Of a stretch of DNA of 38,254 bases, positions 20,475 to 32,730 are shown piece after piece (the first letter of the stretch is position 1; the number at the start of each line of letters is the position of its first letter). The notes below the pieces were generated by a model. The model worked only from the letters and a program-made list of their open reading frames with translations. It had not been told where the DNA came from and did not search any database. The position numbers and the translations under genes were made by a program. Origin of the DNA: a virus; the IMG/VR virus record IMGVR_UViG_3300017708_000698, positions 1-38,254 of that record; one strand, 5' to 3'.

Positions 20475-21644
20475 TCACTTAAGGTCTCTTACGCTCCCTT
20501 GTGCTCCGAAGAAAGTGGTCCATAGTTCTCCCATGGTACGGTATAGTCCTTCTTGGCCTAGTCTGTTAATTGCGAATGGGTCACCAGTTTCGATACCACT
20601 CTCAAAGTATTGTGTTGGAATTGCTGTACTAAAGTGCAAATAGTCTGTGTCTAGGTAGTAGATTCTTGATAGTGTATCTGCTGCCATGTTCTTTGTTGGG
20701 ATGATTGGTACACCGTTGTATGTTGCTACGATGAAACCAGCCTCGATTCCGGGTACACCCTTTACACCGTTGTAGGTAGGGGTAACTCTCTTCTCTTCCA
20801 TGAATCTCTGTTGTGATTGTAGAAGTTGCTGGATTCTCATTAGAGTATCGTATCCAGTTAGCATAACTTTCGGGTTTCCACCACGAATCCACATCTTTTG
20901 GAACATCTCATCTAGTAAGTCTAGAGATAGTGTTCTGTCAGTAGGTGTACCGCTAGAAGCGTTAACACTCATTTCTGCGTTTGACCATGAGTTTGCACTC
21001 CTGTCAATACTGTACATATCCATATCCCCATCTGCGCTAACGTGTCCTGATGCTGCACTTAGTCCAGTTGTTGCGTTTGCACTGTTTTGGAAACCGGAAG
21101 TAACTCGGTCAAGAGACTCGAAGTTGTTACCTGCGACTGTATCTACGTCAGTACACATCATTTTGTTGATTACCTCAGCGTGATGTTTACCCATTTCCTC
21201 TTTCATTACAGAGCGTATGTCTCCCATTCCGTCATCTTTGTCAGCAAGGAAGATTGCAGTTTCAGACATATCGAATGTGTGTGCGATAGTCTTTGGTTTT
21301 GCTGCTACATGTTGGAATGTAGGTTTGATTGTTTCAGGTAGTGTTGCGTTCTCTGCAACTCCGCTTCCAGTAATTGCACCAGCATTTGGTCTGCCAGTGA
21401 TAACGCGCCATCCGCTTCTATCCCACGGTTTCTTTGGTAGTATAGAGAATGCATTGAACTCTTGGTTCAATTGTGACCATACTTTGCGACCATAGATTGC
21501 TTGGTATGTTCCACCTGTTGTTGACAGCATAGGGCTGTCGGCCTTGAGTAATTCACTACCGGAGTATGAGTAACCCATTGCGTTACCTGCTCCATAGTAG
21601 TATCTTTCCATGTCAGTTATTGTTCGTACATAATTTCGTGCCAT
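20475..21644 (-). CDS. Major capsid protein, HK97 fold
   Basis: A 389-residue protein starting at ATG 21644 with AAGGAGAT, one of the best ribosome binding sites in the window. It follows the protease-scaffold gene directly, the canonical order. Typical features of HK97-type shells are an N-terminal region before GGTYQAIYGRKVWSQLNQEF, a KTIAHTFDMSE segment (E-loop/P-domain area), a long spine-like helix (MKEEMGKHHAEVINKMM), and a late A-domain pattern ATYNGVPIIPTKNM then SRIYYLDTDYLHF. It forms the icosahedral shell. Whether the protease trims its N-terminus cannot be told from sequence. The fold call is from order, length and pattern; a structure prediction would settle it. Confidence 0.9.
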   Translation of the reverse strand: MARNYVRTITDMERYYYGAGNAMGYSYSGSELLKADSPMLSTTGGTYQAIYGRKVWSQLNQEFNAFSILPKKPWDRSGWRVITGRPNAGAITGSGVAENATLPETIKPTFQHVAAKPKTIAHTFDMSETAIFLADKDDGMGDIRSVMKEEMGKHHAEVINKMMCTDVDTVAGNNFESLDRVTSGFQNSANATTGLSAASGHVSADGDMDMYSIDRSANSWSNAEMSVNASSGTPTDRTLSLDLLDEMFQKMWIRGGNPKVMLTGYDTLMRIQQLLQSQQRFMEEKRVTPTYNGVKGVPGIEAGFIVATYNGVPIIPTKNMAADTLSRIYYLDTDYLHFSTAIPTQYFESGIETGDPFAINRLGQEGLYRTMGELWTTFFGAQGSVRDLK

Positions 21645-21679: not shown

Positions 21680-23059
21680 TCACTCGAAAGCCTTTGATGC
21701 CAAGTTATGAACTTCATCCCATGACATGTTAGCCAAATCCTCCGTTGATGGAACAGTTACTGCTGGTGCAGTAGATTCCGATTTTGTGATTGCTTCTCCA
21801 GTTTCTGCTGGAGTAGTGATTGCTTCAATGCGCTCTGAAAGTGCACTAATTGCTTTTGTTATCTCGTCTAGAGGACCGCGTGCATCGTATGCTGCTGCTT
21901 CCGCTTTTGCGATTTCTGCTGAACGCTCAGAAGCGTATCTGTTGGCAAAGTTGCTTTCTAAAGAGCCACGGAACTCTTCTTCAAGAGCAGCCGCTTTGTA
22001 TACTTCGTATGCAGACTCGATGTCTGAATCTGATAATGTTGCAGGGTTAATGAAATCTGATTTCTTAACGTCACCAGCACTTCCAGTTGTTTTACCAAAA
22101 GCGTTAGTAGATGGTTTTCCACCTTCTTGTGCTCGACCTTTTACTTGCCCAGTGTGTTGTTCGTAGTTTGCATCCCATTCTTCGGGTGTAGAACCTAGAT
22201 TTGCTTTTTCTAGGTTATCAAAGTGAACACGTGCCTCAGCAGTGTCAACTCCAGCACTCTTTAGAGTGTCTTCCATCCAGTTAAGATAGTCAGATGTGAT
22301 AACATCAGAATATTCTGACTTTTCTACATCAGCATCTTCTTTCTTTTTGTCATCTTTTGCATCTTCTTTCTTACCGTCTTTCTTGTCAGCGATAGCCTCT
22401 TTCAATGCTGCTGGCATTTCGCCTTTCTCCATATCGTCAAGCCTACCTTCTAAACGAGATAGTACGCTGCCAAGTTGTTTCATCATTTCATTATCGTTTT
22501 CTGTTTCTGTCAATTTATTCACTTCCGTGTTATTTTTATCTTCTTTGAGTATGCTGAATGTTGCTTCGGGATTGATGCCTTTTTCACAAATCGTTATTTC
22601 GTGTAGTTCCAGTTTACTAATTTCTTGGTAATCTCCTCGTTTTGGGTCTGATTTTCTGACTCTCTTAAACGCTTGACCACCGATACTGAATCCTCTGAGA
22701 ACGCCTTTTCTGATTTCTGCTGAAACCTCTTTTGCTTTCTCGATGTCGTCACGCAGTTTTACTACCACAAACATTCCGACATCATCGACTTCGCTTTTCC
22801 ACAACCTCCCTTCGTTATCTGTATAATTCGGTACTACATCTCCAACTTGTATATTACTGTGAGCCAATTGAACGTTTCTGTATGACGGATTTTCCATGAA
22901 CTTCCGAAATGCGTGTTTCAATGCCTCCTTTGTTATTACGTCGCCTTGCTTGTCTACAACTTCCACACTGGCATAGCCAGCGACGATGAGGTCATTAGCA
23001 CCCTTAAGGATACCAATTGTCTCTTCGCCAGTTCTGAATAGTTGTTTACTACCGAGCAC
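21680..23059 (-). CDS. Prohead protease (S78-like) fused to scaffold domain
   Basis: A 459-residue protein with a GTG start at 23059 (AAGGG five bases upstream). Residues 1-170 are an HK97-type prohead protease: LIVAGYASVEVVDKQGDVIT, catalytic-type His67 in QLAHSNI, Ser125 in RGFSIGG, and the following LELHEITICEKGINPEA region. Residues about 190-459 are a Lys/Glu/Asp/Ala-rich, coiled-coil-type scaffold, ending with a short helix pair: coiled stretch ITKAISALSERIEAI, a Pro/Thr/Val linker, then LANMSWDEVHNLASKAFE at the very C-terminus. That last motif recurs in the 115-residue protein at 29096-29443. The scaffold would template capsid assembly and be digested when the protease fires. The major capsid gene lies 35 bases downstream. 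Confidence 0.92.
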   Translation of the reverse strand: MLGSKQLFRTGEETIGILKGANDLIVAGYASVEVVDKQGDVITKEALKHAFRKFMENPSYRNVQLAHSNIQVGDVVPNYTDNEGRLWKSEVDDVGMFVVVKLRDDIEKAKEVSAEIRKGVLRGFSIGGQAFKRVRKSDPKRGDYQEISKLELHEITICEKGINPEATFSILKEDKNNTEVNKLTETENDNEMMKQLGSVLSRLEGRLDDMEKGEMPAALKEAIADKKDGKKEDAKDDKKKEDADVEKSEYSDVITSDYLNWMEDTLKSAGVDTAEARVHFDNLEKANLGSTPEEWDANYEQHTGQVKGRAQEGGKPSTNAFGKTTGSAGDVKKSDFINPATLSDSDIESAYEVYKAAALEEEFRGSLESNFANRYASERSAEIAKAEAAAYDARGPLDEITKAISALSERIEAITTPAETGEAITKSESTAPAVTVPSTEDLANMSWDEVHNLASKAFE

Positions 23060-23104: not shown

Positions 23105-26100
23105 CTACTCATCAAGGTTTTTATCATCGAAAACGCTAGACTGCGAGGCTGTTTGTTCTTTTTTCTGTTTTCTACCCGGATAATCTTCCGGTTTCTCCAA
23201 GTCCTCAGTAGGTCGTTTCTTCATATCCCAATCAGGTAAAGACTGTTCTGCTGTCAAAGAAGTAGGTCCACGTGGGCTTTCTACACCCCCTCCAACATCT
23301 ATCCCTAAACCACGTCCGGCCATGTTACTATGTCCTTTTTCCATCTTATCTAGTGCTCTCTCGATAAGTAAAAGCGCTTTTGCCATTTCATTAGGCTTCA
23401 TAATTAAATTGCTATCTTTCTTTGGTTTTAGAATCCCAGCACTTTGTTCTTCTATTTTATCAGAATCAATGTGATTAACAGTCACCTCGCTATCTCCCTT
23501 TACTTCTAACTCTTCTTTTAACAATTCAGTTAATCCTTCTTGCCAATAAGACTCAAGACTCTTTGCTAACTTTAACGAGTAGTCCGAGGCGGTAATTTCT
23601 CCTATCGCAGCAACAGGGTTGACTGCTTGATTATCTACAATATCATATTTCACGACATCTTCGGGCAATCTAATAATAAAGTGACTATCATCAATCTCCA
23701 TAGTAAATGGAACATGGTAAGTAATATCAGATTTAGCAAGCATAACCCACTTCGGGTGTTTCTCTTCACCTTTCATGTATGTAGACTTAGCATCACGTAG
23801 TAATAATTTATCAGAATCTTTGCCTAATTCTTTTACAGCATCTTCTAATCCAACCTCATCTGTGATTCTAATGTCGGATGGACTAGGTACAAAGACAGGA
23901 TGATAACTTTCAAATTGTCCTCTTAAGATTTTAATTCTCTCGCGTGTAGTTAGTTCAGTTACATCATCCGTATCATATAACAGAATGTCATTAATGTAAA
24001 ACTCACCATCATTTAATATCCCGTCTAAAACAAAGTTTTTCTTACAGGCTGCTCTAAACGACGCTCTCATTTCATCTTCACAAGATTGCTTTATGCCGTT
24101 TTCATCTTCTAATTCAACACGTCCATTCTTTTTACTAACCTTACATCTTTTTCCATCTTTCTGTATAGAGACTACCCATTCTCCTGTAAAACCTCTCAAT
24201 TCGGACATATCTTTAATATCAAATATTCTATGTAAAGGTTCTATCAAAGGTATTTCCTTTGGTAAATCTGCTTTTGAAACATCCATCATATCGTTGCTAG
24301 GCGTATTACCATATTCATCTTGAGTTAACTGGGTAGGATTTTGTTGAAATGGTTCTGCGTTTGTTAACATAGATTCAATGTGTTGAGGTGAATGTGTATC
24401 TTTGTGTAAAGATTGTAAATATGTTAATGGTAGAGAATGAAACTTTTCTTCTGAGGTATTTGTACCAACACTAATATTTCCATCGTAATCATGTTCTACA
24501 CCTATTTCGGCTTGACCGCTCCATCCCCAATCCATCAAACCGCTAGTAAAGTGGTCTTGCGGTACAGCCCCTTCTAAACTTCTAAGAGGTTTTACTGGCG
24601 CTGTCATCCAACCTATTTCTTTCTTAGTTGCAATGGGTACATTTGGTTTCAAATCGATATCCGGGCTAGTATCAAAAGAAAGAATATTACTTGCAATATC
24701 TTTTCTTCTTGCGTGATGGTATTCTAATGATGAGTGTCCTCTTTGACTTTGATGTAATAGCGTTCCTTCATTGCTTCTATTATGAGCATTAGGAACTTTG
24801 CTAAGTTTAGTCAATGGTGTTGGTGCTTGATGGTATTGTAAACCATATCCCCCTAACTTCATTTCATTTCTTGCATTTTGATGTAAAAACCCTAAAGCAT
24901 TGTATATAGGATTTCTTTTGAAATCTACCATCGCTCTCTTGTGTGGACCTGCTGGCCTTGAAGGTGGAAAACTAGCCTGTCCTTCTCTCAATACATTATC
25001 TAAATGAGTGTGAACATCGCCGTGTCCTTTTCCTTCAAACATTTCTTTATCTTTCGGATTCCATTGCATCGGGTTACCATCAAGGCCACTCATTGTAGCA
25101 AGTTGACCTATGCTGTAAGCATGTACTGGACCGGATAAAGTTTGTAAATATCTTTGAGCATGTTCTTTATGAGCATCGTCGTTAGGTAAATCTAACATTT
25201 CTAATACATCTTGTACCCCATGTTTACTTGGGTCAATTACGTTATTTGTTAATGGGCCTAAAGTTTTCATTTGATTTGCTAAATTGTAATGGGTATCAGA
25301 CGACATATCTTCTTCTTTCTTAGAATAATGATGAGCGCGAATAGATATATTATGTTCCCCGTCCATGAAAAGACCACGTTGCGCATCTTTTACTGCTCTT
25401 AATGTATTGAGTAATGCTTTTGGATTATCGGGATGGAATGCATCGGGATGTTCTTTTTCAATCGCGGGTTTTATTTTTGTTCTAAAATATTGAGCAACTG
25501 CTTGTCTATCGTCGGTATGAGCCTCTTCCATCATATTTCTCACACCACCAAAGTCACGGATTTTTTTGGCTTGTCTACCATACTCTCTTGCTCTTTTTTG
25601 TTTCATCTCTATGTTAGATTTAATTTCATTTATTTTGTCTCGCAAAGAAGTTATGATTTCAGAATCCCCTGCCCCATTTTCTTCTATGTCTAATTCGTTC
25701 TGCAACATCTCTAAATCTTCTATGTCTTTTCCACTCACTACATCCGCTACATTCTTTTTAGGCGCAGTAGGGAGATTAGTCATTACTTTATTTAATTCAT
25801 CTGCGGTAGAGAGAAAACTAGGGTTATTTTCTATATCTGCGTATCTAAGAAAATTATTAGCAGGTGAATTAGGCGCTGAGGTTCTACGATTTAGAGTAGT
25901 AAATAAATGCGAATGACCCGCCAACATACCGATTGATGTTTCGTTTTTTCCCACACTACTAGTCGCTGTATATGGATTATATGTAAAAATACCTTTTTTA
26001 TCTAAGTCTTTTCCTGTGCGAGTTCTTCCTTCGATACCACTCCAACCTTCTTCTTCTTCATCTCCGTATTCTAGTATTGGCGCTAAACCCGGTGAACGGG

Positions 26101-28435
26101 TATGGTCGTGGTCAGAACTGTTAGTTTTGTTGTTTCTACCTTTACCGACTTTACTACCAGTTTTATTTTGAGAATGTACAGTAGCGTCTGTTTTTGATAA
26201 TATACCTAGAGCGCTTGTATGATTACTTACCCCATTTTCTAAGTAATGAGAATGTAAATGTCCGTATGCGCCTATTGTTTTAGGATTGGCTTCTAACCTT
26301 CCACCTTCTGCTTTTTCTCCTAAAGCAGATATATTTCCTTCAAAATCATGCGCTTTGAAATCATGTAAGATTTCTGCTAATGTAGTGATAGGTCTACCTC
26401 GACCCCCAACGTTTGCAAAAGCGTGTGAGAAAGGATACGCTAAGGTTCTATACTTCCCGTCATGGTCATAAAAATGTTTTTCGTCACCTTCTTTCAATAA
26501 AGGATTATCTTTTCGTGGACCATGCGGAGTTCTAAACGTAGTTAATGCGTTTCTTATAGGTTTAGACATTTCAGCAATACCCATGTGTGCTTGTAATTCT
26601 TCTTTCACCCTTTTCATCACGTCTTTCGATAAAAAAGGTTCTTTTTGCCCCTTAAACATAGGATGCATAGACGGTGATAAATCTCCTTCATTGTAACCCA
26701 CAAGTTTGTGTAAGCCGTCGGGACTCAAAAGAATATGACTAGCATCTGATAATTTTTTAGCAAAAGCCTCTTTTAACGTACCACCTTCTTTCAAAACTTT
26801 TTCATACTCTTTAATATCACTTGGACTAAAAGGTGGTAAGTTTCTTTGCGCTGGTCCATGTTCACCCGCTTCAAGATGTTCTAATAATTTATCACCTTCA
26901 TAGTGGTCTTCTAATTTATTCATAAGATGTTGGTAAGCAGTTTCGTCATAATTTTTTATTCTTTTTTCGTTACCTTTTTCGTCTTTTACATACGAATAAG
27001 GCTCACCTTCGTGTACGAAATTATCTTTTAGATAAACTCCTTGCAGCGCTTTGCCTACCATTCCTTCTGTTCCGAGTCTAGTATTATCAGTATCTGCTTC
27101 TATATGTTTAGCCTTATTAGCGCCCGGATGTTTTTGACTTCTAGTCCAATGGTCTACTTCTGCATTATTTCTCATTTGCATATTGGCTTTTATTCTATGC
27201 ATGTGTATTCTTTGACCATCAGGTAAAGTAACAGACTGATGCGCTGGGTCGTCTGTACCGTATTTATCTACATGTTCTATAACTAAACTTCTTTCTTTTG
27301 GAGATAAAAACTCTAATCCTTTATTCCACGTATCCCAACCCAAACCGTGACCATGAGGTATTTTTTCTGCATCGGCTAAAGTAGACTTACCCCTTGCATC
27401 TAAATCATCATAAGGATTATCACTAATTTTAGGTTCTATCGTTTCTGTAAAAATATCATTACTATCTAATTTTTTCATTCTATCGTTAAAATGGGCTTCT
27501 TCTAAATCCATATCTTGACTTTCTAACTCTTTTACAAGTTTAGGATTTTCTTTTTGCCATCTTTTGAAGTCTCTTAACCTTAGAGTATGCTGGTGTTTAG
27601 TGTCACTTTCATGCCCATCATTACCACCTAAGAAAGATAGTTGTCTTGATTTTCTGTTTTTGTTTACACCATGATAAACACCATGGTCTTTATCTCTATC
27701 TCTTTCATTGTAGTCTAACTTGTGGGCGTTTTCTATCTCCATACCTTTTTCCGCCCACTTATTATCCGATAGATAATATTCTCTCAACATATTTTCCCAT
27801 TCAGGCATTCCGGTATCGACTCTTCTTTTACGAATTGGGTGGTGTTTCTCATCAAACGGGTTAGCATCTAGATAGTGGTCTTCTGTAAATGCCATAGGTT
27901 CAATAGATGTATCGCCGAAGGCAATTCTAAAAGGATTAAATTGAGGCCACATAGAGTGTTTCATTGTGTGTGGAATCATATTTCTTGCACGATATGGACC
28001 ATATTTTTCCCCATCTTTTTGTGGACTATGTAGTGGATAATTATACTTTTTATTATCGTTTTCATCCCAAGTCCGTTTTACTCTTCCAATCGTTTTTATT
28101 CTTATTGGTTCATCTCTTCCTTCTTCTTGTATGTATCTAAATACAGTATCTCGCCATTTGTGGTCTGTACCATATGATTTAGCCATCGCTGGTCTAAAGT
28201 TGTGCATTGTACCAAACTCTGTTTTTTTCTCTTTAGCCTTAGATAGAATATATTCACTGAAAGAATCGCACACAACGTCAACATCTATTTTTTCATACGT
28301 GATGTTATGATTCTCTAAGTTCATCTTAGAAATTAAATAATCTCCAACCTCTTGTTCCGGTGGAGTATTATCGTAAATTGCTTTTAGCAATTCAGTGCGG
28401 TGTCTGATGTAAACTTGTATCGCATCTTCTTCCAT
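23105..28435 (-). CDS. 1776-residue virion-module protein with degenerate DNA-ligase-like domain
   Basis: I place the start at ATG 28435 (GAGGG/GGAGG upstream); an upstream TTG at 28483 would overlap a small zinc-protein gene. Residues 1-1390 are hydrophilic, unusually rich in His, Asn and Asp, with a coiled-coil near the middle and no recognised domain. Residues about 1395-1590 match the order of ATP-dependent DNA ligase motifs: VVSIQKDGKRCKV (1421-1433, motif I KxDGxR), FVLDGI (1468-1473, III), FYINDILLYD...TTRERIKILR (IIIa region), KLLLRD (IV), STYMKGE and KWVMLAK (V). The nucleophilic Lys of motif I is Gln (1425), and the Glu of motifs III and IV are not conserved, so it is probably not an active ligase. 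The C-terminus is a charged, disordered tail. Placed between packaging and capsid genes, it may be an internal or ejected virion protein; this is inference. Confidence 0.88.
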   Translation of the reverse strand: MEEDAIQVYIRHRTELLKAIYDNTPPEQEVGDYLISKMNLENHNITYEKIDVDVVCDSFSEYILSKAKEKKTEFGTMHNFRPAMAKSYGTDHKWRDTVFRYIQEEGRDEPIRIKTIGRVKRTWDENDNKKYNYPLHSPQKDGEKYGPYRARNMIPHTMKHSMWPQFNPFRIAFGDTSIEPMAFTEDHYLDANPFDEKHHPIRKRRVDTGMPEWENMLREYYLSDNKWAEKGMEIENAHKLDYNERDRDKDHGVYHGVNKNRKSRQLSFLGGNDGHESDTKHQHTLRLRDFKRWQKENPKLVKELESQDMDLEEAHFNDRMKKLDSNDIFTETIEPKISDNPYDDLDARGKSTLADAEKIPHGHGLGWDTWNKGLEFLSPKERSLVIEHVDKYGTDDPAHQSVTLPDGQRIHMHRIKANMQMRNNAEVDHWTRSQKHPGANKAKHIEADTDNTRLGTEGMVGKALQGVYLKDNFVHEGEPYSYVKDEKGNEKRIKNYDETAYQHLMNKLEDHYEGDKLLEHLEAGEHGPAQRNLPPFSPSDIKEYEKVLKEGGTLKEAFAKKLSDASHILLSPDGLHKLVGYNEGDLSPSMHPMFKGQKEPFLSKDVMKRVKEELQAHMGIAEMSKPIRNALTTFRTPHGPRKDNPLLKEGDEKHFYDHDGKYRTLAYPFSHAFANVGGRGRPITTLAEILHDFKAHDFEGNISALGEKAEGGRLEANPKTIGAYGHLHSHYLENGVSNHTSALGILSKTDATVHSQNKTGSKVGKGRNNKTNSSDHDHTRSPGLAPILEYGDEEEEGWSGIEGRTRTGKDLDKKGIFTYNPYTATSSVGKNETSIGMLAGHSHLFTTLNRRTSAPNSPANNFLRYADIENNPSFLSTADELNKVMTNLPTAPKKNVADVVSGKDIEDLEMLQNELDIEENGAGDSEIITSLRDKINEIKSNIEMKQKRAREYGRQAKKIRDFGGVRNMMEEAHTDDRQAVAQYFRTKIKPAIEKEHPDAFHPDNPKALLNTLRAVKDAQRGLFMDGEHNISIRAHHYSKKEEDMSSDTHYNLANQMKTLGPLTNNVIDPSKHGVQDVLEMLDLPNDDAHKEHAQRYLQTLSGPVHAYSIGQLATMSGLDGNPMQWNPKDKEMFEGKGHGDVHTHLDNVLREGQASFPPSRPAGPHKRAMVDFKRNPIYNALGFLHQNARNEMKLGGYGLQYHQAPTPLTKLSKVPNAHNRSNEGTLLHQSQRGHSSLEYHHARRKDIASNILSFDTSPDIDLKPNVPIATKKEIGWMTAPVKPLRSLEGAVPQDHFTSGLMDWGWSGQAEIGVEHDYDGNISVGTNTSEEKFHSLPLTYLQSLHKDTHSPQHIESMLTNAEPFQQNPTQLTQDEYGNTPSNDMMDVSKADLPKEIPLIEPLHRIFDIKDMSELRGFTGEWVVSIQKDGKRCKVSKKNGRVELEDENGIKQSCEDEMRASFRAACKKNFVLDGILNDGEFYINDILLYDTDDVTELTTRERIKILRGQFESYHPVFVPSPSDIRITDEVGLEDAVKELGKDSDKLLLRDAKSTYMKGEEKHPKWVMLAKSDITYHVPFTMEIDDSHFIIRLPEDVVKYDIVDNQAVNPVAAIGEITASDYSLKLAKSLESYWQEGLTELLKEELEVKGDSEVTVNHIDSDKIEEQSAGILKPKKDSNLIMKPNEMAKALLLIERALDKMEKGHSNMAGRGLGIDVGGGVESPRGPTSLTAEQSLPDWDMKKRPTEDLEKPEDYPGRKQKKEQTASQSSVFDDKNLDE

Positions 28436-28446
28436 GACATTCCCTC

Positions 28447-28593
28447 TCAGCCTCCGGTATTGTACCTTTGGTAATAAGGACAATCTCTAAGCGCAAGTCC
28501 CTTTGCTTGTTTACAACCTTCGTACGCTGTTGCACCACACATTTTACATGGGTCCATCTGTGCAACGCCTTTCTTGACGTACACTTTATTCAA
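28447..28593 (-). CDS. 48-residue four-Cys zinc-site protein
   Basis: A short gene. From TTG 28593 (GAGGG six bases upstream) the frame reads MNKVYVKKGVAQ, then MDPCKMCGATAYEGC, and ends DCPYYQRYNTGG before TGA at 28447-28449. A shorter form could start at the internal ATG. The four cysteines (CxxC, then two more) suit one zinc ion. It begins 2 bases after the 166-residue Cys-rich gene and ends 11 bases before the 1776-residue gene, so it fills the only gap there and is likely translated in series. The terminal GGAGG forms the next gene's binding site. The function is unknown. Confidence 0.65.
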   Translation of the reverse strand: MNKVYVKKGVAQMDPCKMCGATAYEGCKQAKGLALRDCPYYQRYNTGG

Positions 28594-28595
28594 TC

Positions 28596-29096
28596 TTATC
28601 CCTCAACAAGACGGTCTACTGTATCATGGGTGTTAACTTTCAAAGTATCTAGATTGACACTTTCGCTAGATGCACCTTTGTTAGCAATATCTTCTGAATC
28701 TAAAAGACTTTGATTTGTGTGATAAAAAGCGTTGTATGTTTGACCGCCAGTTTCTATGTTGAATTGCACACCTTCCGGCTGTGTACCGAAACTCGTTTCT
28801 TTATGATGAGTACCTTTTGCAACTTTACCATGAGCCTTGTCACACTGCGCTTTTTGCTTGTCAGAACACTCGGAGTGTTTCTTGCCGAAGTGCTTCATGC
28901 AGTACTTGTCTTTTTCAGCCATCTCTGCTTTCTTCATAGAGGTGCATCCTGTTTTCATCATACAATCCATTTTTTTCATACCGCAAGAAGGACACTTTGC
29001 TTCTTTTTCAAGAGTATCTAATCTTGCTGCTATTTCTTCTGCTTTTCTTAACATCTCATATGCCTTTGGTGAGGCTGCTTCATATCTAGGTTTCAT
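28596..29096 (-). CDS. Cys/His-rich putative zinc-binding protein
   Basis: A 166-residue protein starting at ATG 29096, overlapping the previous stop as TAATG, with AAAGGAGATG upstream. After an N-terminal helix (YEMLRKAEEIAARLDTLEKE), residues about 35-90 hold seven or more Cys with His and many Lys/Met (CPSCGMKKMDC, TGCTS, KYCMKHFGKKHSEC, QCDKAHG). This is a metal-binding region, probably for two or more zinc ions. The remainder (FNIETGGQTYNAFYHTNQSL ...) is polar and unassigned. It lies among small genes between the portal and the ligase-domain protein. No family is recognised; a minor virion or assembly protein is likely. Confidence 0.82.
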   Translation of the reverse strand: MKPRYEAASPKAYEMLRKAEEIAARLDTLEKEAKCPSCGMKKMDCMMKTGCTSMKKAEMAEKDKYCMKHFGKKHSECSDKQKAQCDKAHGKVAKGTHHKETSFGTQPEGVQFNIETGGQTYNAFYHTNQSLLDSEDIANKGASSESVNLDTLKVNTHDTVDRLVEG

Positions 29097-29443
29097 TAAT
29101 ACATCTCCTTTACTTCTCTATGTTGTTCAGCCATATCATGTATGTCATCCCAACTCATTTCGTGAATCTGTTCGTTAGAGTATTTATCAGGGTTATTTTC
29201 GTCTTGTTTCAGTATAGTACCTGAGGATGTTTCCATATCTGCTCTAAAGGCATCAACACTAACATCTTCCGACAATGGTGTAGAATAAGGTACGTAACCT
29301 GCTTTTCTCAAAATTATTTGCGGGTTATCCATTGCTTTTCGTAGCATAGCATTTTCAGCACGAACAGATTGAATATCCCTATCCATGGTTTCCATTTTAG
29401 AAATTAGAGCATTCATTAAACGCTCAGTTACATCTTCTTCCAT
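29096..29443 (-). CDS. Scaffold-like small protein with shared MSWDDIH motif
   Basis: A 115-residue protein starting at ATG 29443 with GAGG upstream. Residues 1-40 form a likely coiled coil (ERLMNALISKMETMDRDIQS). A polar middle follows, then near the C-terminus EQIHEMSWDDIHDMAEQHRE (about 89-108). This nearly repeats the C-terminal LANMSWDEVHNLA of the protease-scaffold protein. The architecture, coiled coil plus linker plus this motif, is also shared. It could be a second scaffold or a capsid- or portal-binding assembly factor. The motif similarity is seen directly; the role is inferred. Confidence 0.8.
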   Translation of the reverse strand: MEEDVTERLMNALISKMETMDRDIQSVRAENAMLRKAMDNPQIILRKAGYVPYSTPLSEDVSVDAFRADMETSSGTILKQDENNPDKYSNEQIHEMSWDDIHDMAEQHREVKEMY

Positions 29444-29855: not shown

Positions 29856-31586
29856 TTATGCGCCTTTTATCCGTCTAGAGTTCATTAAAGCGCGAGAATT
29901 GTTTTGTGCAACTGAATTAGGAGGGCCACGTTGTTGAACACTGGTTACTGGCGAGCCAATACCCGGACTTCCTCTATTTTGAGGAGAGGCTGGGCCTCTT
30001 GGAGTACGGATACCCATACCCTCTCCACCCGGCTGAGATGGCGGCATCGCATTAGCCAACAAACCCGGAGGACTTGCACCCATTTGTTGAGCCATTGGCC
30101 CACCACTTCCGGGCGACATCCCTTGAGGCGGTTGCATTCCCGGCGGCATCGGAGGTGCGCCATCTTGTTGCTCATTCATCTGTCGATAAGTAAATCGTAT
30201 ATCTCTATCTCCCTGTTCCATTAATTCAGGCTTGTATCCAAGCATCATCATTCTTTGTGCAAGGTTAACTTCCATCTCATCTCTTCGTAATCGAGTAATC
30301 TCGTCTTCTTCTTCATTCGGATAAAGCGTCAACTTCCAATCTGTTACTTCCATTTGTTTTAACATTCTAGGAAATAGAACTTGCGTGTAGACTTTCTGAC
30401 CAAACTCAACAGCCCTGTTAGTTACAAGTATTTGCATACCTTCGTTATTTAATCCACCGGATTTTCCGCTATCAATCATAAAGATGCTGCTTACACCAAA
30501 GAATGCCGCTATTCTATTACGCATCTCATCTCTAACAGGAATATATTGCATCTCTTCTAACGTATCCATGAACTTTACCCAATTCACACCACCTCTACCA
30601 GTTTGGCTTTCAATACCAATTTTAGGTATGTAGTGTGGGTCTCTTTCCATTTTTTCGTCTACACTTTTCCAAAATGATTTCATCGATTCTAGATTATCTG
30701 TGGTTACAGAGATAATTCCTTTTGGACTTCTTCTCTTCTGATATGAGGTATACATGTAATTATCCATTGCAGTAAGTGTCATAGCCTGTCTCCACATTGT
30801 GTTTACAGGACTTCTACCGTACAATTTAGACGGATTGTATTTACTAATGTGTATTACTTCTCCTTCTAAGTAATACTGTGTTTTACCACTACCAGCCATA
30901 TTTGCATAGTGCGCTTCTTGCATATTATTGCCGCAAACTTCACACTTGTCATCTTGACCCGGATAGGAGATTTGGTCTCTATGAAGAGGACATACTTTGT
31001 ATCTTCCACCTCGCACACCGCGCTTATCAGATATAATTCTCATAAAGATAGGGTCGCCTCTAATCAATTCTTTAACCCTGTAAAACTTAATGTCCGATGT
31101 TTCGGGGTCTACGAAATATTCTTTTACACAGATTAAGAAAGCATCATCTACTATTTCTAAATCTCTTTCTATCTCTTGCAACACGTGCATGAAATCTTGT
31201 TCCATAGAGTTTTGTTGCTCTAGTAACCACTTAGGGTAGATTAGTTGTTGTACGTCAGGTTGTTTTACTTCCCCTCCACATAACTTACAACTATCTACTT
31301 CGTGAGTATATTCTTCACCGCAGTCCTTGCACTTGTGCTGAAACTTCTTTTCCCAATAATAACCTCTTCTAAATATCTCTTGTCCTAGTTTAGAAATCAC
31401 AGTTCTAAGAATCAAGTTTTCTTGTGATACTGCATAAAGCGCTGGAATAGTAATACCTTGTGCTAATACAGGCTCTTGAATACCAGTTGTGTATAACGGC
31501 ATTTGCGGCTCAGGAGTTGTTCTACTTCTAAACGGACTACCTAATGCAGAGATTAATCGACCTATTCTTCCTTGTTCTTCTGCCAT
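29856..31586 (-). CDS. Portal protein with two zinc knuckles
   Basis: A 576-residue protein starting at ATG 31586 with GGAGGCGA upstream, two genes after the terminase. Portal-like features are the N-terminal region with NLILRTVISKLGQEIFRRGY, a DDAFLICVKEYFV strand region, KYNPSKLYGRSPVNTMWRQA in the wing/stem area, and a long helix region up to RMMMLGYKPELMEQGD. It forms the ring at one vertex through which DNA is pumped. Unusually there are two zinc sites inside the first half: Cys86/89/100/103 (KCKDCGEEYTHEVDSCKLCG) and Cys199/His202/Cys215/Cys218 (VCPLHRDQISYPGQDDKCEVCG). Residues about 470-576 are Pro/Gly/Gln/Met-rich and disordered. Portal identity rests on order and pattern; zinc sites are seen in the sequence. 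Confidence 0.85.
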   Translation of the reverse strand: MAEEQGRIGRLISALGSPFRSRTTPEPQMPLYTTGIQEPVLAQGITIPALYAVSQENLILRTVISKLGQEIFRRGYYWEKKFQHKCKDCGEEYTHEVDSCKLCGGEVKQPDVQQLIYPKWLLEQQNSMEQDFMHVLQEIERDLEIVDDAFLICVKEYFVDPETSDIKFYRVKELIRGDPIFMRIISDKRGVRGGRYKVCPLHRDQISYPGQDDKCEVCGNNMQEAHYANMAGSGKTQYYLEGEVIHISKYNPSKLYGRSPVNTMWRQAMTLTAMDNYMYTSYQKRRSPKGIISVTTDNLESMKSFWKSVDEKMERDPHYIPKIGIESQTGRGGVNWVKFMDTLEEMQYIPVRDEMRNRIAAFFGVSSIFMIDSGKSGGLNNEGMQILVTNRAVEFGQKVYTQVLFPRMLKQMEVTDWKLTLYPNEEEDEITRLRRDEMEVNLAQRMMMLGYKPELMEQGDRDIRFTYRQMNEQQDGAPPMPPGMQPPQGMSPGSGGPMAQQMGASPPGLLANAMPPSQPGGEGMGIRTPRGPASPQNRGSPGIGSPVTSVQQRGPPNSVAQNNSRALMNSRRIKGA

Positions 31587-31587
31587 A

Positions 31588-32730
31588 TTATATCGCCTCC
31601 GCCCACTTTGTTATATCGTCGGCTTGCACTCCCCATTCCGAAAGGAGAGCATTCGACTTATTAGTATCATCAGACCAATTGTAATATCTAACCACTTTCT
31701 TTAATTCTTCTTTCTTTAATCCATCGTTTTCTTCTATGTATGCTAAAACCGCTTTTGCTTGTGTTTTCTTCATTTCTAAAAACGGTAATATACCCTTCAA
31801 TAGTTTACTAATATCTGCCTTAGAATAAAATTGTAATCTATGTTGACTTCTTTGATTATCTTTGTATATTTTTTGGTCTAATTGTAAAACACCGCAATCT
31901 AAAGTTTTTTGCAATTGTTCACAGTGTACTTTACCTCTTGAACCAGTAGCGATAAATCCGGCTCTAGGTTCACCTCTCCCTGTAATTGTAATATACCCAT
32001 CTGCATCTAAGAAACCCGCAGCATACGCCCATGGGTCTTTTATGATTAATCCAGTTCTATCCATTTTTACAAATGTGCCTCTAGATGCCCCAGCCATAAT
32101 ATCTACCTCTTCTCCATACATACTGAGTAATTTTGCTAATTTCATAGATGTCATACTTTTGTGTAATATATTTCTATCATATAGATTAGCAAATAACGTT
32201 CTACCGCTCATAGTACCTTTTTCTAAAAGTATTTCAGCACTTTTTACTAACGCTTCTCGGTCTTTTTCATTTAGTCTATCCATTTGATGAAGTGTACTTT
32301 TCCATACTTTTCTTGCATCTCTTTTACCATCCATTGCGGCCACCCATGCTTTTTTCTGTTCGTCTTGCCACACATCTTCATATTCTTCAAGCATTTTCAA
32401 AGCGTCATCCGATTTTTGCCATTGGTGACAGGCTCTTTGTAAACTAACTCTACGAGAGTCGCCAAACTTTCTCAAGGCTTTCATATTGTTATCAGACATT
32501 CCTAATTCTTTTATCACATCAGAGTATTGCTCACACCAACTATGCATTTTTAGAGTAGCATCTAATTCCATACTTTTCATAGCCCGTATATCTTCTATGG
32601 CTTTATCGATAAACTCTTTTTCATCTTTGTTGCTTCTTCTAGCCTTTCTAAGTCGATGTACTAACTCTGTCGCAGAATAACCTAAATTGGCTTCAAACCA
32701 ACCATCGTTATTCTTAGAAAAAGTATTCAT
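31588..32730 (-). CDS. Helical domain plus LAGLIDADG endonuclease-like domain
   Basis: A 380-residue protein starting at ATG 32730. Residues 1-200 are charged helices, with a possible winged-helix part around 190-230 (TSMKLAKLLSMYG). Residues about 232-335 are a single-motif LAGLIDADG fold: YAAGFLDADGYITI (236-249), which matches the I-CreI-type motif, with Asp244 in the metal-binding position, and ILPFLEMKKTQAKAVLAYIE (314-333), which matches the helix and strand end of that fold. Single-motif proteins act as dimers. The gene is wedged between terminase and portal with one base to the portal start, so it is a resident of the packaging module rather than a free intron endonuclease. A role in DNA recognition or cutting during packaging is inferred. 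Confidence 0.85.
   Translation of the reverse strand: MNTFSKNNDGWFEANLGYSATELVHRLRKARRSNKDEKEFIDKAIEDIRAMKSMELDATLKMHSWCEQYSDVIKELGMSDNNMKALRKFGDSRRVSLQRACHQWQKSDDALKMLEEYEDVWQDEQKKAWVAAMDGKRDARKVWKSTLHQMDRLNEKDREALVKSAEILLEKGTMSGRTLFANLYDRNILHKSMTSMKLAKLLSMYGEEVDIMAGASRGTFVKMDRTGLIIKDPWAYAAGFLDADGYITITGRGEPRAGFIATGSRGKVHCEQLQKTLDCGVLQLDQKIYKDNQRSQHRLQFYSKADISKLLKGILPFLEMKKTQAKAVLAYIEENDGLKKEELKKVVRYYNWSDDTNKSNALLSEWGVQADDITKWAEAI

Follow-up and report, generated by a model that had tools for sequence, protein, structure and literature searches.

The scaffold of 80alpha and the CpmB protein of SaPI1 have in common a C-terminal RIIK helix-and-hook, by which both bind the same cleft and N-arm of the capsid protein (PMC5644958), and the P22 scaffold gp8 carries a C-terminal capsid-binding helix-turn-helix (PMC9965877). 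In T4, a common capsid targeting sequence brings the internal proteins into the prohead core (PMC3012670), and in herpesviruses the protease–scaffold fusion and the scaffold (UL26/UL26.5) have the same C-terminal residues for binding the major capsid protein, MCP (PMC12005531). The magroviruses, which infect marine group II archaea, have genomes of ~90 kb, are related to haloviruses and encode a family-B DNA polymerase (PolB), a prohead serine protease, a portal and an MCP (PMC10160649).

The window analysed here, a virus contig of 38,254 bases, belongs to a tailed virus and is most likely from a magrovirus of marine archaea. Tailed viruses that infect marine group II archaea are abundant; to our knowledge, nothing experimental has been reported on how their heads assemble, and we know of no structure, interaction or virion proteomics for magroviruses. 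A first-pass annotation of this DNA had noticed that a scaffold and a 115-aa protein share the motif MSWD(D/E)(I/V)H, and both copies are indeed present: LANMSWDEVHNLA sits in the scaffold-fusion open reading frame (ORF) and IHEMSWDDIHDMA in the 115-aa ORF, p115. Its further view, that no motif of this kind had been described, has to be given up, with 80alpha SP and SaPI1 CpmB, the P22 scaffold and the T4 internal proteins all serving as precedents. The head genes with which we are concerned are the following.

20475-21644, minus strand: MCP, the favoured docking partner (SU10_MCP Pfam match, 2.8e-12; 33.6% identity to the HVTV-1 MCP)
21680-23059, minus strand: 459-aa fusion of an S78-type prohead protease with scaffold (Pfam and PHROG matches)
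29096-29443, minus strand: p115, a 115-aa coiled-coil protein, probably accessory scaffold- or core-like (ORF call; 138 distinct homologues)
29856-31586, minus strand: portal, lying two genes from p115, as alternative docking partner (Phage_portal, 1.9e-10; phrog_18178, 4.4e-65)

Among named phages, the MCP of the window is nearest to those of haloarchaeal HVTV-1 and its relatives, at ~32-34% identity. IMG/VR relatives of the window reach 116 kb, and PolB was found in 10/10 of the large relatives tested. A Cpn60/thermosome-type chaperonin of ~500 aa (Cpn60_TCP1) is likewise encoded in 10/10. We place the contig most likely among the magroviruses because the HVTV-1-like MCP, together with the PolB, chaperonin and size of the relatives, fits the published description; the characters of the group (~90-100 kb, halovirus-like head genes, PolB) were scored on, and found in, the relatives of up to 116 kb. 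The gene content points to a marine group II archaeon as host. Relatives were gathered via the MCP (80 of them), with more then added via p115 and scaffold profiles, giving a final set of 138 distinct p115 and 159 distinct scaffold sequences, all with complete C-termini. In the cellular genomes searched, a single relative of p115 turned up, at 38% identity; its contig (PAUP01000076.1) belongs to a metagenome bin labelled as a Cytophagaceae bacterium and is probably of viral origin and misbinned.

The 459-aa protein has an N-terminal S78 domain, a coiled-coil C-terminal part and an adjoining MCP gene, the combination that marks an S78 protease–scaffold fusion. It matches Peptidase_S78 (PF04586, 2.8e-9) and S78_2 (PF14550, 1.6e-7), both above the curated cut-offs, as well as the PHROG head maturation protease phrog_23555 (5.8e-14), and its gene lies directly upstream of that of the HK97-fold MCP. 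Behind the protease domain, the C-terminal part is charged, variable, helical and of low complexity. The elements of interest in the fusion protein are these.

22520-23002, minus strand: protease domain, ~residues 20-180 (Pfam range 23-178 and conservation)
21815-22030, minus strand: scaffold coiled-coil helices, residues 344-415 (AlphaFold2, pLDDT mostly 66-84)
21779-21790, minus strand: scaffold linker ITK↓S, a putative protease site ~20 residues before the motif Trp (K426 invariant)
21686-21751, minus strand: scaffold hairpin PSTEDLANM-SWDEVHNLASKAF, residues 437-458, as predicted by AlphaFold2 (P437, M445, W447, V450, H451 and A454 invariant)
21707-21727, minus strand: scaffold core motif MSWDEVH (motif scan)

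For p115 itself, Pfam returned no match and PHROG one weak match of unknown function; named phage records held no relatives, and solved structures gave only weak coiled-coil matches, mainly to GpsB. The protein can be divided as follows.

29327-29437, minus strand: p115 N-terminal coiled-coil helix, residues 3-39, with invariant L-I-x-K-M-E at 13-18 (AlphaFold2 and conservation)
29243-29323, minus strand: p115 middle segment NPxxLLRKAGFVxxxTPLSEDVxxDxFR, residues 41-67, a second conserved block (column entropies)
29204-29218, minus strand: p115 linker ILK↓Q, residues 76-80, a putative protease site (K79 nearly invariant)
29126-29176, minus strand: p115 hairpin NEQIHEM-SWDDIHDMAE, residues 90-106, as predicted by AlphaFold2 (N90, W98, I101, H102 and A105 invariant)
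29138-29158, minus strand: p115 core motif MSWDDIH (motif scan)

The TAA stop of p115 overlaps the ATG of the next gene, which encodes a 166-aa protein (p166; 28596-29096, minus strand) with a CPSCGxxxxDC cysteine cluster; translation of this gene may be coupled to that of p115. The interval from p166 to the scaffold holds the gene of a 1792-aa protein (p1792; 23105-28483, minus strand) that matches nothing in Pfam or PHROG and gave no match in a single-sequence search of the PDB; judged by eye, its IQKDGK and, later, LLLRD...YMKG, encoded at ~23564-24346, resemble motifs of ATP-dependent DNA ligases. On the far side of the portal gene, in the terminase–portal interval, the ORF at 31588-32730 (minus strand) has a C-terminal domain resembling LAGLIDADG/homing endonucleases (GFLDADGYI), with a weak Pfam match to LAGLIDADG_3 and a PHROG match to an HNH endonuclease (5e-7).

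The motif is universal in this lineage. When related genomes were searched for it, as the first-pass annotation had suggested, W..[IV]H..A was found in 138/138 distinct p115 and 159/159 distinct scaffold C-termini, and this conservation in all relatives rules out a chance match. The proposal thereby survives the first ground for refutation that the annotation had itself named, a motif that relatives do not conserve. Both families share the core M-[S/D]-W-x-[E/D]-[I/V]-H-x-[L/M]-A. In p115, the Trp is invariant together with N (W-8), I (W+3), H (W+4) and A (W+7); in the scaffold, the residues that never vary are, besides the Trp, P (W-10), M (W-2), V (W+3), H (W+4) and A (W+7). The key motif columns of p115 have entropies of 0-0.4 bits and those of the preceding linker mostly 2-3.4 bits. 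The motif is also confined to these two proteins: a six-frame scan of the window with [MLI]S[WFY][DE][DE][IVLM][HN] or W[DEN].[IVLM][HNQ].[LMI]A matched only at these two places. Across 48 distinct virus records, each between 37 and 116 kb long, a pattern at the DNA level that encodes W-x-[acidic/polar]-[I/V]-H-x-[hydrophobic]-A occurred exactly twice in 45 and once in the other three, whose contigs end before p115. The reversed pattern, run over the virus records as a control, did not occur at all. With exactly two copies per record, the motif does not mark cargo proteins at large. The same restriction would be left unexplained if the hairpin docked on a chaperone instead of a virion protein; the Cpn60/thermosome-like chaperonin encoded by all ten large relatives would offer such a dock, but we know of no scaffold that docks on a chaperonin, and we regard this reading as scarcely plausible.

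A single position separates the two families absolutely, W+3 being Ile in all 138 p115 sequences and Val in all 159 scaffolds. Such a fixed difference could mean that Ile-type and Val-type hairpins are tuned to different sites (pentons and hexons, or portal and MCP), with p115 setting capsid size or marking a special vertex, and small motif differences between 80alpha and SaPI1 have been hypothesised to bias capsid-protein competition (PMC5644958). However, the two hairpin types differ only modestly, by a single Ile/Val change, swaps in chimeras of 80alpha and SaPI1 were largely interchangeable (PMC5644958), and HVTV-1 forms a T=13 head (PMC12810830) with neither p115 nor the motif, so this proposal appears quite improbable. 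The two hairpin types could also, though in our judgement doubtfully, form a two-address code that puts two assembly proteins at different procapsid positions; if so, an archaeal virus would always carry, in its own genome, a dual-scaffold arrangement that is otherwise known from a phage plus its satellite. Parallel change of the two hairpins along the protease tree is weak, with 0 and 1 changes on the same branch. At W-1, 8/8 scaffold changes lie on branches where p115 is already of the Asp/Glu type, none being on the same branch, and scaffold Asp occurs only where p115 has Asp, Glu or Lys, clustered in the tree; such patterns are no more than a hint that the two hairpins change in parallel.

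Sharing of sequence between p115 and the scaffold is limited to their ends. A profile–profile comparison (E 2.5e-7 as a single comparison) aligned 33 columns, with the ILK(S) site at one end and the hairpin at the other, and nothing else, which bears out the initial impression of two otherwise unrelated proteins with a shared C-terminal module and rules out homology over their whole length. In iterative searches among 12,994 ORFs, each family retrieved the other with E of ~6e-4 to 8e-4. The order of parts also agrees between the AlphaFold2 monomer models, where, as had been proposed, the module follows a coiled coil and a flexible linker in both proteins. For p115, the model has helices at 3-39 and 41-47, a low-confidence region, and then a helix at 90-94, a turn and a helix at 98-106, with pLDDT of ~84-91 across residues 11-40 of the coiled coil. 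For the scaffold tail, it has helices at 344-390 and 394-415, a low-confidence linker, and then a helix at 439-443, a turn and a helix at 447-458; mean pLDDT for the scaffold model is poor (49.9), with ~77-81 over the last 20 residues. Although modelled independently, the two hairpins have the same predicted geometry. On the strength of the profile comparison and these models, we describe both proteins as coiled coil, linker and hairpin. The shared element had been called a short terminal helix, and what stands of this is a C-terminal helical module, predicted to be not a single helix but a helix-turn-helix of ~18 residues, in which the Ser (or Thr, Asp or Glu) directly before the Trp is the likely N-cap in both hairpins. 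Both hairpins lie at the C-terminus after the linker, the scaffold copy within ~20 residues of the end.

The linkers in front of the hairpins carry a conserved site of their own. All 79 distinct scaffolds (79/79) have hydrophobic-x-K-[S/A] ~20 residues before the Trp (S in 70, A in 9). Of the distinct p115 tails examined, 68/68 likewise have a hydrophobic-x-K before the hairpin; the Lys is followed by S, G or A in 51, while some of the remainder have a second Lys closer to the hairpin. K79 is nearly invariant amid an otherwise variable linker. The p115 of the window has K-Q at this place, and in phi12 and SaPIbov5 the HK97-like proteins are reported to be cleaved after K or R, K↓Q included (PMC8569155). 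A further candidate site, K47↓A48, lies in the middle block of p115, where L-x-K-[A/S] is kept in 93%, and the N-arm of the MCP has LLK34↓A, with LLK[A/S] in 98% of relatives. Sites of the hydrophobic-x-K-[SAG] type are also conserved near the start of p1792, while the presumed tail genes farther downstream have hardly any; the count includes four conserved scaffold sites within the folded protease domain, which are probably structural. Judged from sequence, the fused protease would cut the linker sites and so free the hairpins. Residues 1-35 of the MCP are nearly invariant in the relatives and end in the conserved LLK↓AD, and by eye the HVTV-1 MCP has SK↓AD at an apparently matching place, which suggests that the N-arm may be cleaved in both the window MCP and that of HVTV-1.

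In p115, a conserved Lys site lies between the second conserved block (NPxxLLRKAGFV...TPLSEDV...DxFR) and the hairpin. This order would also suit a core-targeting tag that binds the scaffold or its coiled coil, p115 being a cargo or internal protein that is freed by cleavage of the tag as in T4; the block could then be the payload, and the T4 internal proteins are a precedent (PMC3012670). Against such a tag, the scaffold bears the hairpin too, which would then need to bind the very protein that carries it; T4 tags several proteins, when here the scaffold shares its hairpin with a single one; and the p115 model consists largely of coiled coil and coil of low confidence, in which no payload domain can be recognised. 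We consider the tag a rather unlikely explanation.

We interpret the shared element instead as a procapsid-docking hairpin, carried by the scaffold and by p115 as an accessory scaffold or core protein, with the MCP its probable partner and cleavage probable during maturation, and judge this to be the likeliest account of the locus, if by no means a secure one. The scaffold domain, fused to its S78 protease, would self-associate through the coiled coil, and its C-terminal helix-turn-helix would clamp the inner face of the MCP, most likely at the N-terminal arm. The N-arm is favoured because the position and anatomy of the magrovirus scaffold match those of the P22 and 80alpha/SaPI1 scaffolds, in which a C-terminal hairpin or helix makes the contact with the N-arm of the MCP; gene neighbourhood matches as well. 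Through its paralogous hairpin, p115 would take its place in the same lattice of shell and core. It might connect the shell with the portal region, and a position near the portal is possible because its gene lies two genes from that of the portal. After assembly, the protease would probably cut the linker sites of the [ILV]-x-K-[S/A/G] type, separating both proteins from the shell.

The same closeness of the genes would agree with a hairpin that binds the portal, the scaffold and p115 being recruited to the portal ring or nucleating around it, and C-terminal hooks of the P22 scaffold are seen on the portal surface, where they mediate portal–coat contact (PMC12005531). In the solved P22 and 80alpha/SaPI1 procapsids, however, the hairpin or hook contacts mainly the MCP (PMC9965877, PMC5644958), and no sequence feature here indicates contact with the portal; binding to the portal is, in our view, an improbable alternative to docking on the MCP. 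The motif was not found in HVTV-1 or in the Methanofastidiosa virus vir519, which have an MCP of the same family with a similar N-arm. It is thus not required for an N-arm of this kind, and the hairpin appears to be lineage-specific.

Taken together, the locus offers a specific, universal and testable candidate docking element for magrovirus heads, makes the so far unannotated 115-aa p115 a likely assembly protein, and comes with predicted protease sites in the scaffold, p115 and the MCP. The open-access titles, abstracts and passages available to us contained no report of a docking motif in magroviruses. What is new is that two paralogous candidate docking hairpins are universal in one archaeal virus lineage, with a class-specific residue fixed.

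Compared with the known systems, HVTV-1 also has a related MCP, whose gene immediately follows that of an S78-like prohead protease with a C-terminal part that is long and acidic, but its gp119 ends without the motif, no p115 homologue was found, and its MCP N-terminal extension is longer. The herpesvirus UL26 and UL26.5 proteins have a common C-terminus because their genes overlap, whereas here the hairpin is carried by two separate, otherwise unrelated genes. The capsid targeting sequence of T4 is likewise a short conserved tag on a second class of protein; it is N-terminal and found on several diverse cargo proteins, whereas the present element is C-terminal and occurs on one protein besides the scaffold (two copies per genome). 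P22 gp8 resembles the magrovirus scaffold in that it is coiled and flexible, ends in a hairpin and goes with an HK97-fold MCP, which the P22 hairpin binds, but its contact is largely electrostatic (R293, K296), whereas the core here is made of Trp, His and hydrophobic residues with acidic ones. P22 is not known to have a protease or a second hairpin-bearing protein. The consensus M[SD]Wx[ED][IV]Hx[LM]A lacks a basic cluster and shows no homology to the RIIK or RKLK motifs; lacking that cluster, the hairpin would work like the P22 and 80alpha motif without being its homologue. The closest likeness is to 80alpha and SaPI1, where two different small helical or coiled proteins also carry a short C-terminal motif after a flexible linker. 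There, the genes are split between a phage and a satellite that compete, and binding to the MCP is established; here, one virus has both genes, the arrangement is universal in the group, the motif sequences are unrelated to those of 80alpha and SaPI1, and binding to the MCP is predicted. This comparison suggests that the principle of "two scaffolds, one capsid clasp" known from 80alpha/SaPI1 operates within a single archaeal lineage in which both proteins are always present.
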